This document shows, one piece after another, positions 19,864 through 64,000 of a stretch of 64,000 nt of DNA (its first letter is position 1; every line of letters begins with the position of its first letter). The translations under genes were made by a program, and so were the position numbers. The notes under the pieces were generated by a model. That model saw nothing but the letters and a program-made list of their open reading frames with translations. It did not search any database and was not told the origin of the DNA. Where the stretch lies: NCBI RefSeq assembly GCF_000744825.1, contig NZ_JQMR01000001.1, forward strand, positions 2,031,501 to 2,095,500, in the 5' to 3' direction. The DNA comes from Carnobacterium mobile DSM 4848 (GTDB lineage Bacteria; Bacillota; Bacilli; Lactobacillales; Carnobacteriaceae).

Positions 19864-21737
19864 GTGCGCCCGGCATGGGTGATAACTTGGTGGTGAAAGT
19901 CCACTACAGGCTTTGCAGTAGGAACTGTTAGCGAATAGCAAGGGTGTCCCCCGTGAGGAGGAATCTGAAGGAAGCTGGACGCAAACACTCGCACTGACGA
20001 ACAGAAATCTCATACAAGGCTGACTGGAGATGGACGAGCTTGCCAAATAAAGTGAAGTCCTATACTGCACGAATCTCCTACAGTAAATGAGGCAGTGACA
20101 TGAGTGGAAGGTTATCATTCTTACCCGGGGAGGTCTCACTAGCGGCAAACACCGTAGTAACAACGAATAGTGAGAAGTCAGCAGATGCCATAGTAGGAGA
20201 ACGCCGTTCTCTGAAGGGCAGAACAATAATAATCTTGAAGAAACAAGGAGGTGAAGTCACTACAAAATCGCAGAAAACATCGTGGTAAAGACCGAAAAGA
20301 TGGCTTCTTACAAAGGGACAAGCTGGAAGCGAAAGAGTATGTAAGAGCGCGTAGTAGTGACAGCATGGAGATGAAAGAACAAGATGGTATCACGTTAATA
20401 GATAAAGTCATAGAGAGTGGTAATCTATGGCAAGCGTATGAAAAAGTACGAAAAAATAAAGGAGCTCCAGGAATAGATGGTATCACGGTCGAAGAGCTAG
20501 AGGACCATATGAAGAAATATTACCCAACGTTAGTACAGAAACTAAAGGACGGTACGTATAAACCTCAACCTGTTCGAAGAGTGCCCATACCAAAACCAGA
20601 TGGTTCTAAACGTTATTTAGGTATTCCAAGTGTACTTGATAGAGTTGTTCAACAAGCTATTTTGCAAGTTATCGACCCAATGATTGACCCCTATTTTTCA
20701 AATAATAGTTTTGGTTTCCGTAAAGGTAAAAGTGCCCATCAAGCCATACAAAAAGCGGAAGAATATTATGAAGAAGGGTATAGAATAGTGGTCGATTGCG
20801 ATTTGAAAAGTTATTTCGATACCATCCACCATCAAAAGCTTAGAGCCTATTTAGAAGAATTTATCCAAGATAAAGTTGTATTAAAGTTAATCTGGAAATT
20901 TCTTCGCTCTGGGATATTAGATAAAGATATCTATATCGAAACAGATAAGGGGGCACCGCAAGGTGGCCCACTGTCACCTTTACTCGCAAATGTATATCTA
21001 AACCAACTAGATCGAGAACTAGAAAGAAGAGGGCATAAATTTATTCGTTACGCGGATGATTTCGTTATCTATGTTAAAAGTCAGCGTGCTGGTGAAAGAG
21101 TCATGGAGAGTGTTACTGAGTATATAGAAAAAGATTTACGACTAACAGTAAATCAAAAGAAAAGCAAGGTGACCACTCCAACAAAAGCGAAGTTTTTAGG
21201 ATTCCATATTATGAACCACATGGGAAAGTTGGATGCCGACCTGCTAAGTCGGCACAACGAAGATTCAAAGACAAACTTCAAAAACTAACTAGTCGTAAAC
21301 GACCAGGAACTTTCCTGAACATTGTAAAAGAGATTAATCAAGTTACCGTTGGTTGGATTAATTATTATGGTATCAGTTATATGAAAACCTTTATAGCAGA
21401 AACACAATCCTGGTTAAACCACAGGCTTCGGCAACTTATCTGGAAACGATGGAAGAAAGTTAAAACACGTTATACTATGTTAAAAAGATATGGTATCCAA
21501 CATGATGACGCATTAAAATTAGCTGCTTCTCGAAAAGGGTACTGGAGAACATCCAAAAACCACATTATTCATACAGCTATAACAAAAGACAGACTCATAA
21601 AGTGGGGATTAAAAGATTTATCCCAACTGTATGCGTCTGCCCAAACAAGATACTCAAGTTATTGAACCGCCGTATACCGAACGGTACGTACGGTGGTGTG
21701 AGAGGTCGGAACCGTAAGGTTCCTCCTACTCGTTTAT
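19864..21737 (+). mobile_element. Group II intron, probably class C
   Basis: The element begins with the canonical GTGCGCCC 5' end and finishes around TACTCGTTTAT. A domain V/VI-like structure precedes the end (GAACGGTACGTACGG, GTGAGAGGTCGG, then the GGAACCG/GGTTCC stem at 21708-21725). It is about 1.87 kb long, encodes a reverse transcriptase without an endonuclease domain, and sits directly downstream of a terminator hairpin, the preferred target of class C introns. The right boundary is uncertain by a few bases. The insertion splits the leader region of the OppA-type gene. Confidence 0.82.
20251..21665 (+). pseudogene. ltrA: Group II intron reverse transcriptase/maturase, frameshifted
   Basis: The first frame (345 codons) carries the reverse-transcriptase fingers and palm: KNKGAPGIDG, KPDGSKRYLGIP, DCDLKSYFD, TPQGG-like APQGGPLSP and the catalytic RYADD. 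At about 21222-21224 one G appears to be missing from a GGGG run. The protein leaves frame after FLGFHIMNHMG and ends at 21288. The next frame continues exactly with GKVGCRP, the maturase X domain (TVGWINYYG) and the C-terminus SSY at 21665. The enzyme is probably inactive for splicing and mobility unless the base is a sequencing error. The GTG at 20251 is uncertain; ATG at 20365 or 20371 may be the true start. Confidence 0.82.
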
Positions 21738-59687: not shown

Positions 59688-60716
59688 ATGGGGATTAACG
59701 TATTAGTTGTAGATGATTCTCCATTTATGAGAAAAATCATAACCGAAATGATAGCAGAAGTACCAGGTTTGGAAGTTCAAGGAACGGCTAGGAATGGTCG
59801 AAATGCTTTAAAATCCATTCCGCTTTTAAAACCAGATATTGTTACATTGGATATTGAAATGCCGGGTTTGAATGGATTAGAAACATTAAAACTCATTAAA
59901 CAAGATTTTGATATCCCAGTAGTGATGATGAGTTCCCATAGTGGGGAAGCCATTACGATTGAAGCGTTGGAGTTAGGGGCAATGGACTTTATTGAAAAGC
60001 CGATTGACCTGAAAAATCAAAAAGAAGAGTTTAAAAAAGAAATAGAAAAGAAAATAAAAGCTTTATTTGAACCTAACAGTTTCTCGGCTGTAGAAAAAAT
60101 ACCTGCAAGTAAACGCATTAGGAATGAATTGAAAAAAGAGATACCGGATAAGATAAAAGCGATCGTTATTGGAGCCTCTACTGGGGGGCCAAAAGCTTTG
60201 CTGCATCTGGTTGAACGTTTTCCTGAAGAGTTGAATATACCTGTTTTTATTGTTCAGCATATGCCTAAAGGATTTACAGCTTCATTTGCTGAACGGTTAA
60301 ATATGAAAGCTAAAGTACCAGTCGTTGAAGCCCAAGCTGGAATGGAAATACAAAAAGGCACCGTTTATTTAGCTCCAGGCGATTACCATATGACGCTAGC
60401 CCAAAGTAAAATCAAGTTGTCAAGTACGCCTAAGATTTTGGGTGTTCGTCCAGCAGTGGATTACTTATTTCAATCAGCAGCCGAGAACTATGGGGCTGAA
60501 CTAGTGGGCGTTATTTTGACAGGGATGGGACACGATGGAAGTCAAGGAATGGTGGAAATAAAAAAAAGAGGCGGGTTTACGCTCGCCCAAGATCAAGAAA
60601 CATCGGTAGTTTACGGTATGCCTGGAAATGCAGTTAAAAAAGGTGTGGTTGATCAAATCGCCAGCTTGGCAGAACTGTCCGAGATAGTAAATTGGATAAT
60701 AAGGATGAGACAATAA
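59688..60716 (+). CDS. cheB: Chemotaxis methylesterase CheB
   Basis: A 342-aa two-domain response regulator. The receiver domain has VVDDSPFMR and the phosphorylation aspartate in VTLDIEMPG. The C-terminal methylesterase domain has the triad in GASTGGP (Ser), VQHMPKGFT (His) and GMGHDGSQGM (Asp). It removes methyl groups or deamidates receptor glutamines for adaptation. The stop overlaps the cheR start by one base. Confidence 0.95.
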   Translation: MGINVLVVDDSPFMRKIITEMIAEVPGLEVQGTARNGRNALKSIPLLKPDIVTLDIEMPGLNGLETLKLIKQDFDIPVVMMSSHSGEAITIEALELGAMDFIEKPIDLKNQKEEFKKEIEKKIKALFEPNSFSAVEKIPASKRIRNELKKEIPDKIKAIVIGASTGGPKALLHLVERFPEELNIPVFIVQHMPKGFTASFAERLNMKAKVPVVEAQAGMEIQKGTVYLAPGDYHMTLAQSKIKLSSTPKILGVRPAVDYLFQSAAENYGAELVGVILTGMGHDGSQGMVEIKKRGGFTLAQDQETSVVYGMPGNAVKKGVVDQIASLAELSEIVNWIIRMRQ

Positions 60717-61489
60717 TGGAACTTAACTATGATTTTTTTTATGACTGGACTAAAAAAAATTTAAATATCAATCTGAACGGCTACAAAGAAAAACAGTTGC
60801 AAAGACGTATCGCTAGTGTAATGAAAAATTCAGGGGCGGCCACTTTAGAGGAATACTCACGCAAAATCCAAAAAGAACCAGCTGTAAAACAAGAGTTTCT
60901 AGATTACATTACCATCAATGTGACGGATTTTTTTCGGAATCAAGATATTTTTGAAGAATTTGAAAAGCAGCTGGTTACCTATTTGTCACCTCGGTTTTCT
61001 AATTTAAAAATCTGGAGTGCTGCTTGTTCGACTGGAGCAGAAGCTTACTCTATGGCTATGATTCTTGATAAACATGCAATCCGCTCTGCAGAAAAAATAC
61101 TAGCTACCGATATTGATGAGACCATTTTAAAACGAGCCAAAGTAGGGAAATACAAGTCCCACGAAATGAAAAATGTGACAGAAATGGATCGGAGTCGTTA
61201 TTTTCATGAAGAAGATGGCGTATTCTGCTTGACACCGGGCATTAAAAATAGAGTACAATTTAAAAAGCATGATTTGATAGCGGACCGGTTCAGTTCTGGC
61301 TTCCATGCAATTGTTTGCCGCAACGTGACCATTTACTTTAAAAATGAAGTGAAAGAAGAACTTTATCAAAAATTTAGCGATTCCCTTATGCCGGGCGGTC
61401 TCTTTTTCACTGGAGCAACCGAAGCTATCTACAATCCTGAAGCCTATGGGTTCCAAAAAGTAGCTCCATTTATCTATAAAAAATTATAA
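60716..61489 (+). CDS. cheR: Chemotaxis methyltransferase CheR
   Basis: A 257-aa S-adenosylmethionine-dependent protein-glutamate methyltransferase. The N-terminal helical domain contains KEKQLQRRIASVM. The catalytic domain has the SAM-binding WSAACSTGAEAYSMAM, the ATDID motif and CRNVTIYF (usually CRNVLIYF). It methylates chemoreceptor glutamates. A longer frame opens at 60692 with TTG; the ATG at 60716 overlapping the cheB stop is preferred. The tandem repeats follow ten bases after the stop. Confidence 0.94.
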   Translation: MELNYDFFYDWTKKNLNINLNGYKEKQLQRRIASVMKNSGAATLEEYSRKIQKEPAVKQEFLDYITINVTDFFRNQDIFEEFEKQLVTYLSPRFSNLKIWSAACSTGAEAYSMAMILDKHAIRSAEKILATDIDETILKRAKVGKYKSHEMKNVTEMDRSRYFHEEDGVFCLTPGIKNRVQFKKHDLIADRFSSGFHAIVCRNVTIYFKNEVKEELYQKFSDSLMPGGLFFTGATEAIYNPEAYGFQKVAPFIYKKL

Positions 61490-61498
61490 GGATGCAAA

Positions 61499-61990
61499 AA
61501 AACAGGATGCGGAGTGCTCTCGCCCAGCTCAGACAGAAAATTAGAAAAATTCCCGCAAAAGGCCGTAAGCCTTGAGGACAATTTTGTCTATTTTCCGATG
61601 AGCTAGAGCACGCAGCTCAACTAAAACAGGATGCGGAGTGCTCTCGCCCAGCTCAGACAGGAAATCAGAAAAATTCCCGCAAAAGGCTGTAAGCCTTGAG
61701 GACAATTTTGTCTATTTTCCGATGAGCTAGAGCACGCAGCTCAACTAAAACAGGATGCGGAGTGCTCTCGCCCAGCTCAGACAGAAAATTAGAAAAATTC
61801 CCGCAAAAGGCCGTAAGCCTTGAGGAAAATTTTGTCTATTTTCCGATGAGCTAGAGCACGCAGCTCAACTAAAACAGGATGCGGAACGCCACATGGGAGT
61901 TTCGATTCAAAATTAGGAATCTTGTCGGAAATGTTTCATTTCCAGAAAGATTATCTATTTTGACGATAAACTGTGGCGTGCAGCTCAACT
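61499..61990. repeat. Tandem 124-bp hairpin repeats between cheR and cheA
   Basis: Three near-identical 124-bp units (61499-61622, 61623-61746, 61747-61870) are followed by a diverged 120-bp unit (61871-61990). A partial fifth start (AAAAAGGATTCGGAAC) continues to about 62030. Each unit begins AAAACAGGATGCGGA and ends GCAGCTCAACT. In units 1-3 GTGCTCT and AGCTCA pair with TGAGCT and AGAGCAC, with an inner AAGGC/GCCTT stem. In unit 4 the arms are different (ACGCCACA/TGTGGCGT, TCAAAAT/ATTTTGA, GGAAATG/CATTTCC) but the long hairpin is kept. No gene is encoded, and nothing else is seen in 61490-62059 except the cheA ribosome site. Confidence 0.9.
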
Positions 61991-62059
61991 AAAAAGGATT
62001 CGGAACACTGTCCGGACCAACCGATCTAACTAGGAATCTATGAAAGGGAGGGATATCGT

Positions 62060-64000
62060 ATGGATGAAAACAGTAAATATCTCGAATTATTTTTTGAAGA
62101 AACAGATGAGCATTTACAAAGCTTGAATGAACAAGTCCTTGAATTGGAGCAACATCCGGAACAGTCAGAAATTGTAGATGTGATGTTTAGATCAGCTCAT
62201 ACCATCAAGGGAATGGCAGCGACTATGGGATTTGATACCCTGTCAAAGCTAACGCATAAAATGGAAAATATCTTTGATTTGCTTAAAAATAAAACCATCC
62301 AAGCAGAATCAGACACAATTGCTTTGATATTCGATTGTTTGGATACATTATCAGATTTAGTAGAAGACCTAAGAGAAGAAAATGATGTGGAACGCGATAT
62401 CAGTGCCTTGGTTGACCGCTTAAACGAAGCGGCTGAAGGAAAAGCTGCATCAGCTGATGTTCAAAGTGAAGAACAAACAGATGAAACAGATGAAATATTT
62501 AACTTAAGCTTACATAATCTGGAAGATTCTGATCGGCAAGTGATTGAGAATGCGAAGGAAAACGGATTTCAAGCGTATGTATTGGCGATAAAAATCGATG
62601 AAGACAGTGGTATGAAAAATGCGCGTGTTTTTCTTGTCATGAGCAAGCTCGAACAACAAGGAGATATCTTATACGTAGAGCCGCATGCTGAGGTAGTAGA
62701 AAATGAAGACTTCGGCTCTGTGTTCAAACTTATCTTTCTCAGCAAATTAGATGAAGAAACGGTCAAAAACTTAGCGCTAGATAATAGTGAAATTGAGAAT
62801 GTCTTGATTCATACCATTAAAGACGATGATCAACTAGTAGCAGTTGCTGAAGAGGAAGAAATAGAAAAAACAGCAATGACCGAATCACCAGAAAAAAAAG
62901 CTGAAGCAGAAAAACAAGAACAAATAAGTAAGCAGCCAGAACCCATTCAGAAGACAGCCGCTAAGACTTCTCACAAACAAGCTATGAATCATTCTGTTCG
63001 TGTTGACATTGATAAATTAGACTCTTTTATGAACTTGGTTTCCGAATTAGTCATTTACCGCACGCAATTAATGGATATCAGTACTCAGCTACAAGCCAAT
63101 GAACTGACAGAACCGTTAGAACAAGTCGGCCGAATCAGCGCTGATTTGCAAGAATTGGTGTTAAAAATCAGAATGCAGCCGGTCAGTGCGGTTATGAGCC
63201 GTTTTCCAAGAATGGTCCGAGACCTTGGCAACGATCTTGGAAAAGAATTTGAATTGGTCATCGAAGGTGAAGATACAGAATTGGATCGAACAGTCGTTTC
63301 CGAATTAGGCGAACCGTTGATCCATTTGATTCGCAATGCAGCAGACCACGGGGTAGAAATGCCTGAAAGAAGAACGGAAATCGGCAAAAATCCAAAAGGG
63401 CAAATCAAGATTACGGCTTATCAAGAAGGCAACCGGGTTGTTTTAACGGTTTCAGATGATGGAAAAGGGTTAGACCCGGCAGCTATAAAAGCTAGTGCAG
63501 AAAGAAAAGGAATCGAAACAGAAGGATTAAACGATAAAGAACTGCAGCACTTGATCTTTCATCCAGGATTTTCAACAGCGAGCGAAGTCACCAGCATTTC
63601 TGGACGGGGCGTAGGAATGGACGTTGTAAAGCAAAAGATCAATACGCTTGGCGGAACCATTGAGATCAACAGTGAAATCAATAAAGGTACCACGTTTAAA
63701 GTCAATCTGCCGCTTACGTTATCGATCATCCAAGCGTTAATGGTGAAAGTCGGAAGTGAAACGTTCGCACTGCCACTGGGAGTTGTACAAAAAATCATTA
63801 AACCAGAAGCAGCAGAGATCGTTCAAGTTCATGATAGTGAAGTTTATTTGTTTGAAGAAGCAGCAGTTCCTGTCATCCACTTAAACGAAGTACTGGGTAT
63901 TGAAGCAACCAATAGCAGCAACCTGCATTTGGTATTGGCAAAACAAGGAGACAACCATTATGCGTTAGCAGTCGATGATATTATTCGGCAACAAGAAATT
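62060..64000 (+). CDS. cheA: Chemotaxis histidine kinase CheA, 3' end beyond window
   Basis: The first 647 codons of CheA are present and the frame is open at the window edge. P1 carries the phospho-accepting His47 in RSAHTIKG. A P2 CheY/CheB-binding region and an acidic linker follow. P3 begins near SVRVDIDKLDSFMNLV. The P4 ATPase has HLIRNAADHGVE, SDDGKGLD and GRGVGMDVV. P5, the CheW-like domain, begins around ALMVKVGSETFALPLG. It autophosphorylates and passes phosphate to CheY and CheB. AAAGGGAGGG precedes the ATG. The tandem repeats separate it from cheR. Confidence 0.95.
   Translation, partial: MDENSKYLELFFEETDEHLQSLNEQVLELEQHPEQSEIVDVMFRSAHTIKGMAATMGFDTLSKLTHKMENIFDLLKNKTIQAESDTIALIFDCLDTLSDLVEDLREENDVERDISALVDRLNEAAEGKAASADVQSEEQTDETDEIFNLSLHNLEDSDRQVIENAKENGFQAYVLAIKIDEDSGMKNARVFLVMSKLEQQGDILYVEPHAEVVENEDFGSVFKLIFLSKLDEETVKNLALDNSEIENVLIHTIKDDDQLVAVAEEEEIEKTAMTESPEKKAEAEKQEQISKQPEPIQKTAAKTSHKQAMNHSVRVDIDKLDSFMNLVSELVIYRTQLMDISTQLQANELTEPLEQVGRISADLQELVLKIRMQPVSAVMSRFPRMVRDLGNDLGKEFELVIEGEDTELDRTVVSELGEPLIHLIRNAADHGVEMPERRTEIGKNPKGQIKITAYQEGNRVVLTVSDDGKGLDPAAIKASAERKGIETEGLNDKELQHLIFHPGFSTASEVTSISGRGVGMDVVKQKINTLGGTIEINSEINKGTTFKVNLPLTLSIIQALMVKVGSETFALPLGVVQKIIKPEAAEIVQVHDSEVYLFEEAAVPVIHLNEVLGIEATNSSNLHLVLAKQGDNHYALAVDDIIRQQEI

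Follow-up and report, generated by a model that had tools for sequence, protein, structure and literature searches.

A family of small, seemingly mobile repeats in Bacilli that keep a hairpin shape while their arms are rewritten

Background

Several families of short interspersed repeats with predicted secondary structure have been described in Firmicutes and other bacteria, and we here compare them, by description and from excerpts of the cited papers, with a tandem array of hairpin units situated between cheR and cheA in Carnobacterium mobile DSM 4848 (assembly GCF_000744825.1, contig NZ_JQMR01000001.1, positions 2,031,501 to 2,095,500; "the window" denotes this whole stretch of 64,000 nucleotides (nt)). 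The BOX, RUP and SPRITE repeats of Streptococcus pneumoniae are also short and interspersed, have predicted hairpins and are thought to be parasitic, and BOX is modular with repeatable units, like the arrays studied here; they are found in S. pneumoniae and less in S. suis, and the word covariation is absent from the text of the source (PMC3049150). The repeats bcr1-bcr18 of the Bacillus cereus group are likewise intergenic and measure 100-400 base pairs (bp); bcr1-bcr3 resemble miniature inverted-repeat transposable elements (MITEs) and are often present in mRNAs, and bcr10 and bcr18 have conserved secondary structures (PMC3446304, PMC6542083). Unlike our units, bcr1 is reported from the B. 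cereus group only, and its mobility is linked to a TTTAT motif. Small bacterial MITEs are likewise shorter than 200 bp, non-coding, often TA-ended and mostly intergenic (PMC2229807). Most MITEs have terminal inverted repeats, whereas in our units the two ends, AGGATGCGGA and GCAGCTCAACTA, form no more than a basal stem of four base pairs with a bulged T, and the sequence of the paired arms is free to vary. ERIC resembles the units in being one long stem-loop, and Efa-1 of Enterococcus faecalis is also a repeated stem-loop family in a lactic acid bacterium, but at 163 nt it has two adjacent stem-loops, where the unit has about 120 nt and one long nested hairpin (PMC2267715). None of these nearest kinds is described, in the excerpts of the open-licence literature searched, as having arms rewritten over a class, and no description in the excerpts of open-licence PubMed Central texts searched was recognised as these units.

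We found that the array belongs to a family of small repeats of many Bacilli, often located at gene ends, that keep their shape while their arms are rewritten and that are seemingly mobile. We consider it probable that the array consists of a small mobile element of Bacilli, non-autonomous and present in four copies, which is recognised via its folded single strand.

Results

The array between cheR and cheA

Four tandem units of 116-120 nt lie at 61504-61991, with starts that are 124 nt apart. Units 1-3 are 98-99% identical (pairwise differences of 1, 3 and 4 bases), in agreement with an earlier note, made by reading the letters, that had described three near-identical 124-bp units. The same note had seen in unit 4 the common flanks and fold with rewritten arms that still pair, and this was confirmed: its arms differ from those of units 1-3, the flanks (AGGATGCGGA, GCAGCTCAACTA) are shared and the fold is the same. 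Each of the four units had a folding energy better than all 200 of its own shuffles (z -3.15, -3.69, -3.28 and -4.15 for units 1 to 4). The truncated fifth copy that had been proposed exists as a fragment, and the stretch that contains it (61991-62059) shows no above-chance fold (z 0.28). A unit remnant, GGATGC, directly after the cheR stop codon had been overlooked. The 3' flank, allowing at most 1 mismatch, occurs 4 times in the window against 0.20 expected. The features are as follows (bits are scores of the covariance model R1, of which units 1-4 are part, so that their 96-116 bits arise partly by construction):

60692..61489, + strand: cheR, host gene upstream (open reading frame; Pfam CheR 8.7e-51; stop codon 61487-61489)
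61490..61495, + strand: unit remnant GGATGC, immediately 3' of the cheR stop codon (sequence)
61504..61623, + strand: unit 1, arm type A (fold, alignment; 114.1 bits); 5' flank 61504-61513, stem 1 61514-61520 / 61605-61611, 5' bulge 61521-61525, stem 2 61526-61531 / 61599-61604, 3' flank 61612-61623
61628..61747, + strand: unit 2, arm type A (111.8 bits)
61752..61871, + strand: unit 3, arm type A (115.5 bits)
61876..61991, + strand: unit 4, arm type B, 116 nt (96.5 bits); stem 1 61886-61892 / 61973-61979, 5' bulge 61893-61897, stem 2 61898-61903 / 61967-61972 (5/6 pairs)
61993..62014, + strand: left end of a truncated fifth unit (AAAGGATTCGGA at 61993 with two mismatches; right limit set by eye)
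62060..64000, + strand: cheA, gene downstream, open at the window end (open reading frame; Pfam)

The possibility that the array is an intrinsic terminator was rejected, as a hairpin with a T run after it is the mark of such a terminator and the array contains no terminator-like site on the + strand; one such site was found on the - strand (61894-61879), and the region total was 2 versus 1.8 in shuffles. Elsewhere in the window, positions 19947-21734 have matches to Group II introns (RF02001, RF01998, RF00029).

Fold anatomy and covariation

Of 54 candidate units, four were dropped by eye as chance matches (four flank mismatches, partly also for non-pairing) and the remaining 50 were aligned. 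From the ends inward, a unit starts with a basal stem of four pairs and a bulged T, followed by GGA and by stem 1, which has 7 bp and no fixed sequence. Next come an unopposed bulge of 4-5 nt on the 5' side and stem 2, which has 6 bp and mostly AG at its start and CT at its end. Further in lie an inner loop that is usually GA...GA, an A/T-rich stem in which one base is bulged, and an apical stem and loop. In the MAFFT alignment of the 50 units 93.2% of 1350 cells were paired, both sides had changed in 23/27 pairs, and the covariation was 0.647, versus 0.185 in shuffled and at most 0.159 in slid alignments. The suggestion of the earlier note that shape is conserved while sequence changes is thus upheld by many copies, compensatory changes and conserved flanks. 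For the 17 rows that were less than 85% identical, the per-column identity was 94% in the 5' flank, 99% in the 3' flank, 86% in GGA and 94-97% in the first two pairs of stem 2, against 54-55% in stem 1 and 38-43% in the remainder of stem 2.

The same picture was obtained outside the family Carnobacteriaceae with model-fitted alignments: 95.4% of the cells were paired and 27/27 pairs had changed on both sides among 133 distinct rows, and a second alignment of 38 distinct rows (A4) gave 89.2% and 23/27. Four alignments were used in total, of which A1 was not fitted to the model and A2, A3 and A4 were; in A4 one of five measures stayed within the shuffles (64 pair types versus 59.6, a value reached by 40/500). 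The one-sided bulge measured 4 or 5 nt in 216/220 rows and 3-5 nt in 219/220, with nothing opposite in 220/220 (rows less than 90% identical within each alignment; of the four alignments three are model-fitted and two have units in common). The GA/GA of the inner loop was coupled across the two sides in all four (p 3e-4, 1e-12, 6e-10 and 0.011); in A2, for instance, GA was present on both sides in 61 rows, on a single side in 2 and 6, and on neither in 20 (p 1e-12).

All 7 pairs of stem 1 were formed in 39 of the 50 units and at least 5/6 pairs of stem 2 in 46. Copies without pairing, which the earlier note had named as grounds to regard the fold of unit 4 as chance, do occur, as a minority only (at most 4/6 pairs of stem 2 in 4/50; at most 5/7 of stem 1 in 5/50), and some badly pairing units resemble joins of two arm types, e.g. 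the unit at 2427263. In two genera some units carry a similar insert of roughly 60-68 nt at one constant point (L012 1395-1577; L117 after 1858; L218 381-558), which is a nested element or a unit variant with an extra branch.

G-T pairs outnumbered A-C pairs in the four alignments (28 v 8; 42 v 11; 59 v 11; 21 v 8), as expected if the written strand is the folding strand. Among distinct units the own strand was also the more stable as RNA in 36/42 units of genus f2 g22, 20/21 of genus f3 g8 and 71/93 of all others; unit 4 of the window follows suit (sense -37.4, antisense -34.2 kcal/mol). The shape is strongly constrained, mainly on the element's own strand, and this holds both for lineages in which host mRNA would contain that strand and for one in which it would often contain the opposite strand.

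Distribution of the family

A DNA search with unit 1 recovered 17 places in the C. mobile genome. Scanning with a 3'-flank pattern gave 30 sites in forward and 5 in reverse orientation, compared with one of each for the reversed control pattern; several of these 35 sites lie inside coding sequence, without a unit. Identical flanks carry several arm types among the copies. Units were also present in the named relatives Pisciglobus halotolerans DSM 27630, Carnobacterium jeotgali MS3 and Desemzia sp. RIT 804. R1, built from the 50 units and with E-values from a shortened calibration, gave 38 matches in the C. mobile genome (E up to 0.01) and matches in 16/18 genomes and 6/6 genera of the family. 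For the order, class and phylum 9 candidates were scored per genome with stricter filters, and the counts are thus lower bounds: at least 139/395 genomes and 20/80 genera of the order Lactobacillales (matches with E up to 1e-5 were absent in 256), at least 48/398 genomes and 15/146 genera of the class Bacilli (22 of the 48 outside the order) and at least 4/398 genomes of the phylum Bacillota, own genome included, all four of which belong to the class. Three single-contig genomes of genus f2 g22 had 128-133 matches each (150 best candidates scored). A contig pattern scan yielded 58 stretches, of which those from three Carnobacteriaceae genera were used; the remainder belonged to other phyla or were unchecked.

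Compared by eye, most sequences from other families have the same outer anatomy and the inner part varies more; examples of their ends are AAAAGCGGA...GCAGCTAGATA in f2 g22 and AAGATACTAAGG...GAGTTCAATTA in f3 g8. Five weak matches in the C. mobile genome are further members or fragments; one of them is a shortened unit with the usual flanks, and others have the AGC...GCT ends found in f2 g22. Units with these other ends, and a miniature unit of 39 nt, were noted at the loci L335-L339 (2235444, 22716, 224881, 2453166, 129092).

No Rfam family matched over the window array, and in seven loci (E up to 5) the sole match above its gathering score was a PyrR site in L175, outside the unit (301-421). 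A named RNA family was thus rejected for lack of Rfam matches to the units.

Position at gene edges and relative to replication

Genome context was analysed for loci that were best-scoring matches rather than random draws, with open reading frames of at least 80 codons as genes; 149 clusters were reduced to 147 by removing repeated flanks and to 107 by keeping those that were flanked by genes at either side and free of overlapping frames. In 55 of these the 5' end of the cluster overlapped a gene edge or was within 10 nt of one, against 8 for the 3' end, and the 5' end was the nearer one to a gene edge in 86/107 (p 1.6e-10). In the C. mobile genome all 13 clusters that were studied first (one a partial unit) start at the end of a co-oriented frame: 10 at most 3 nt from the stop codon, 2 via a remnant directly after the stop and 1 with the frame running 41 nt into the unit. 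Uniform placement would give a product probability of 1.6e-25 for 12 of these clusters (remnants taken as start, one cluster left out). Among the five weak matches 4 start at most 12 nt from a co-oriented frame end or overlap it, and 1 lies 67 nt from a divergent frame. The genes that precede units include mnmE, rpoB, pcrA, the thymidine kinase gene, fliY, purB and a mechanosensitive channel gene.

Throughout the Carnobacteriaceae the upstream stop codon was at most 14 nt away in 41/47 clusters with an upstream gene, and in one genome of the class outside the order (L328) the unit follows a gene whose last codons are those of mnmE. In f2 g22 the edge is a different one: a divergent gene start lies 12-22 nt off in 12/17 clusters with a called neighbour, and CCTCC, the Shine-Dalgarno complement, is present in the 21 nt before the unit in 16/27 clusters, versus 0/52 in Carnobacteriaceae. 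This near-exact placement at edges that differ between two lineages is the strangest point of the analysis, and the sole explanation we offer is targeted insertion combined with selection against damage.

All 52 listed strong clusters of Carnobacteriaceae (from eight genomes, orthologous sites included) are co-directional with replication. In f2 g22, on the other hand, 98/117 listed clusters, found on both arms, are opposed to it (listed places only, i.e. 150/393 units of three genomes). Because the orientation is opposite in the two lineages, it follows the gene edge and not replication, and insertion in the lagging-strand template was rejected as a general rule. On a side note, 50/52 listed Carnobacteriaceae clusters are on a single chromosome arm, the one that dnaA does not point into (G000, G004-G006, G009, G011-G013), and in genome G241 (C1 1129154-1130620) a unit begins ~40 nt upstream of a dnaA match, on the opposite strand.

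Some units extend the gene before them. In several species (L212-L220) the pcrA frame ends within the unit, which supplies the stop codon and new C-terminal residues, and in the C. mobile genome (L109) a unit adds about 13 residues to another gene, presumably encoding a SIS/RpiR-like regulator. A tandem repeat of ~50 bp with GGACAAA...TTTGTCC arms adjoins or interrupts units in this genome and in G008 (L015 downstream of 1536, L012 downstream of 1699, L220).

Occupancy of orthologous sites

Orthologous sites of relatives were compared by eye. Between cheR and cheA full units were seen in C. mobile alone among the genomes compared; the site is empty in G005, G006, G007, G009 and a 61-bp piece of G012, and G004 has a remnant only. 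The tdk-prfA site is empty in the three relatives compared. At mnmE-mnmG units were found in G004, G009, G011, G012 and G013, remnants in G008, G010 and G017, and an empty site in G005 and G006. At pcrA-ligA they were found in G005, G006, G007 and G009-G013, with a remnant in G008 and an empty site in G004 and G017. At rpoB-rpoC, G004, G005 and G017 have units, those of G006 and G007 are degenerate and none was seen in G008 and G011-G013. The arm type at one site may differ between species. At the first four sites insertion polymorphism was thus seen between species, not within one species. Taken together, these patterns resemble insertions that are gained and lost and that favour certain sites.

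The earlier note had offered a tuning of CheA against CheR by the array as one option. As the cheR-cheA junction of the relatives compared lacks units (five sites empty, one remnant) and units follow many other genes, a role special to the che operon is not supported, and we rejected it. A row of hairpins would occur within any cheR-cheA transcript, and a secondary effect on the level of cheA is possible.

Discussion

The observations to be explained are the dispersal of the units, the site differences between species, the tandem arrays with mixed arms and a fold that is precise despite rewritten arms. A palindromic mobile unit, the other option raised at the outset, fits the dispersed copies and the differing occupancy best. 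The shape is constrained whichever strand the host mRNA would carry, and the simplest reading is that this constraint stems from how the element itself propagates, through a machinery that recognises folded nucleic acid. In such a scheme an enzyme acting in trans would read one folded strand of the element, either as RNA or as single-stranded DNA of the same strand. The enzyme would rely on the terminal sequences, the bulges and the internal loops and would thus accept arms of any sequence provided that they pair; it would position each copy with its 5' end at a gene edge, in the lineage of C. mobile mostly a stop codon, and later units would go into the junctions of older ones. It is conceivable, although we think it rather unlikely, that the family is a bacterial counterpart of short interspersed nuclear elements: an RNA element of Bacilli of which the transcript would be recognised through its shape and then copied into the chromosome again at places that translation signals determine (in one lineage at the stop codon, in another next to the Shine-Dalgarno sequence).

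Various results weigh against a mobile element that is read by shape. We saw neither an enzyme that mobilises the units nor an autonomous copy, an excision product or a transposition event, and no constant target duplication could be assigned: TA at both ends fits several sites and the 5' TA is absent at the pcrA sites. The filling of the pcrA, mnmE and rpoB sites in several species is also expected from an inherited function. In f3 g8, a genus with 2-Mb genomes, the units show no clear tendency to lie at gene edges (medians 240 and 366 nt) and, taken alone, no G-T excess (7 v 6); antisense folds better than sense in unit 1 of the window (-45.4 v -37.9 kcal/mol); and of the five weak matches in the C. 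mobile genome, all of which lie by coordinates on the arm that holds 50/52 of the listed Carnobacteriaceae clusters, 3 run with replication and 2 are opposed. Furthermore, the window array had no blastn match in plasmids or phages and one f2 g22 and one f11 g149 array none in plasmids, and exact patterns found no complete unit in viral contigs, where two flank-pattern matches fail the model. A plasmid- or phage-borne element was accordingly rejected, as far as blastn queries with these three arrays reach (plasmids only for f2 g22 and f11 g149).

The units might alternatively act as host regulatory RNA, in which the hairpins at operon junctions would make transcripts more stable, process them or attenuate them, and selection on host expression would preserve the fold. 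The clusters of the C. mobile genome are mostly directly 3' of co-oriented stop codons, several lie between co-oriented pairs (e.g. mnmE-mnmG, rpoB-rpoC, pcrA-ligA, cheR-cheA) and several sites are filled in many species. There is a precedent in B. cereus, where in excerpts of the source bcr1-bcr18 are reported in mRNAs (84/165 and 62/155) and a correlation with decay rate is given for bcr3 only (PMC3446304). We nonetheless regard this explanation as unlikely: related species differ in how many units they have, in arm type and in which sites are filled, C. mobile alone among the genomes compared has full units at the che site, and in f2 g22 the units are often antisense beside the start of the neighbour, yet their own strand folds better in most cases. 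As it usually does so even at such antisense gene-start sites, the element itself seems to be what the structure serves. A possible CsrA motif in the 5' flank (ACAGGAUG) was set aside, because other families retain the fold with a different flank.

The fold might also be free of selection, with template switching in an imperfect palindrome re-matching the arms, so that the covariation would simply follow from DNA replication. Compensated arms do occur within a single type (e.g. GTGCTCT/AGAGCAC and GTACTCT/AGAGTAC), as such a process would produce, but it should erase the one-sided bulge, which persists in nearly all rows, and it predicts neither the excess of G-T over A-C nor the coupled GA/GA loop, which makes it very improbable. 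Hardly any credence is given to a folded recombination site akin to integron attC. Such sites are recognised structurally and have extrahelical bases, and the units resemble them in that a folded single strand would be read by shape rather than by its arms, after stop codons and in fixed orientation, as seen in Carnobacteriaceae. They differ from attC in that their ends, AGGATGCGGA and GCAGCTCAACTA, are not paired R boxes, the 3' end is not kept in other families, and they stack with no genes or gene cassettes between them; the attC end pair RYYYAAC / GTTRRRY was found neither in A1 nor in the sequences of other families.

Recognition of small repeats is usually by fixed end sequences, whereas the lengths of the helices, the bulges and the loops are kept here, and the helix sequence is not, across a bacterial class. 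In the lineages that were examined most closely, the units take up a nearly exact position with respect to stop codons or ribosome-binding sites. Shape and position together point to an enzyme that reads a folded nucleic acid and finds gene edges, and the family offers a large stock of natural variants for testing the needs of such an enzyme. For lactic acid bacteria and other Bacilli it means that a structured element, unmarked by Rfam, has been added to what are probably many transcripts.
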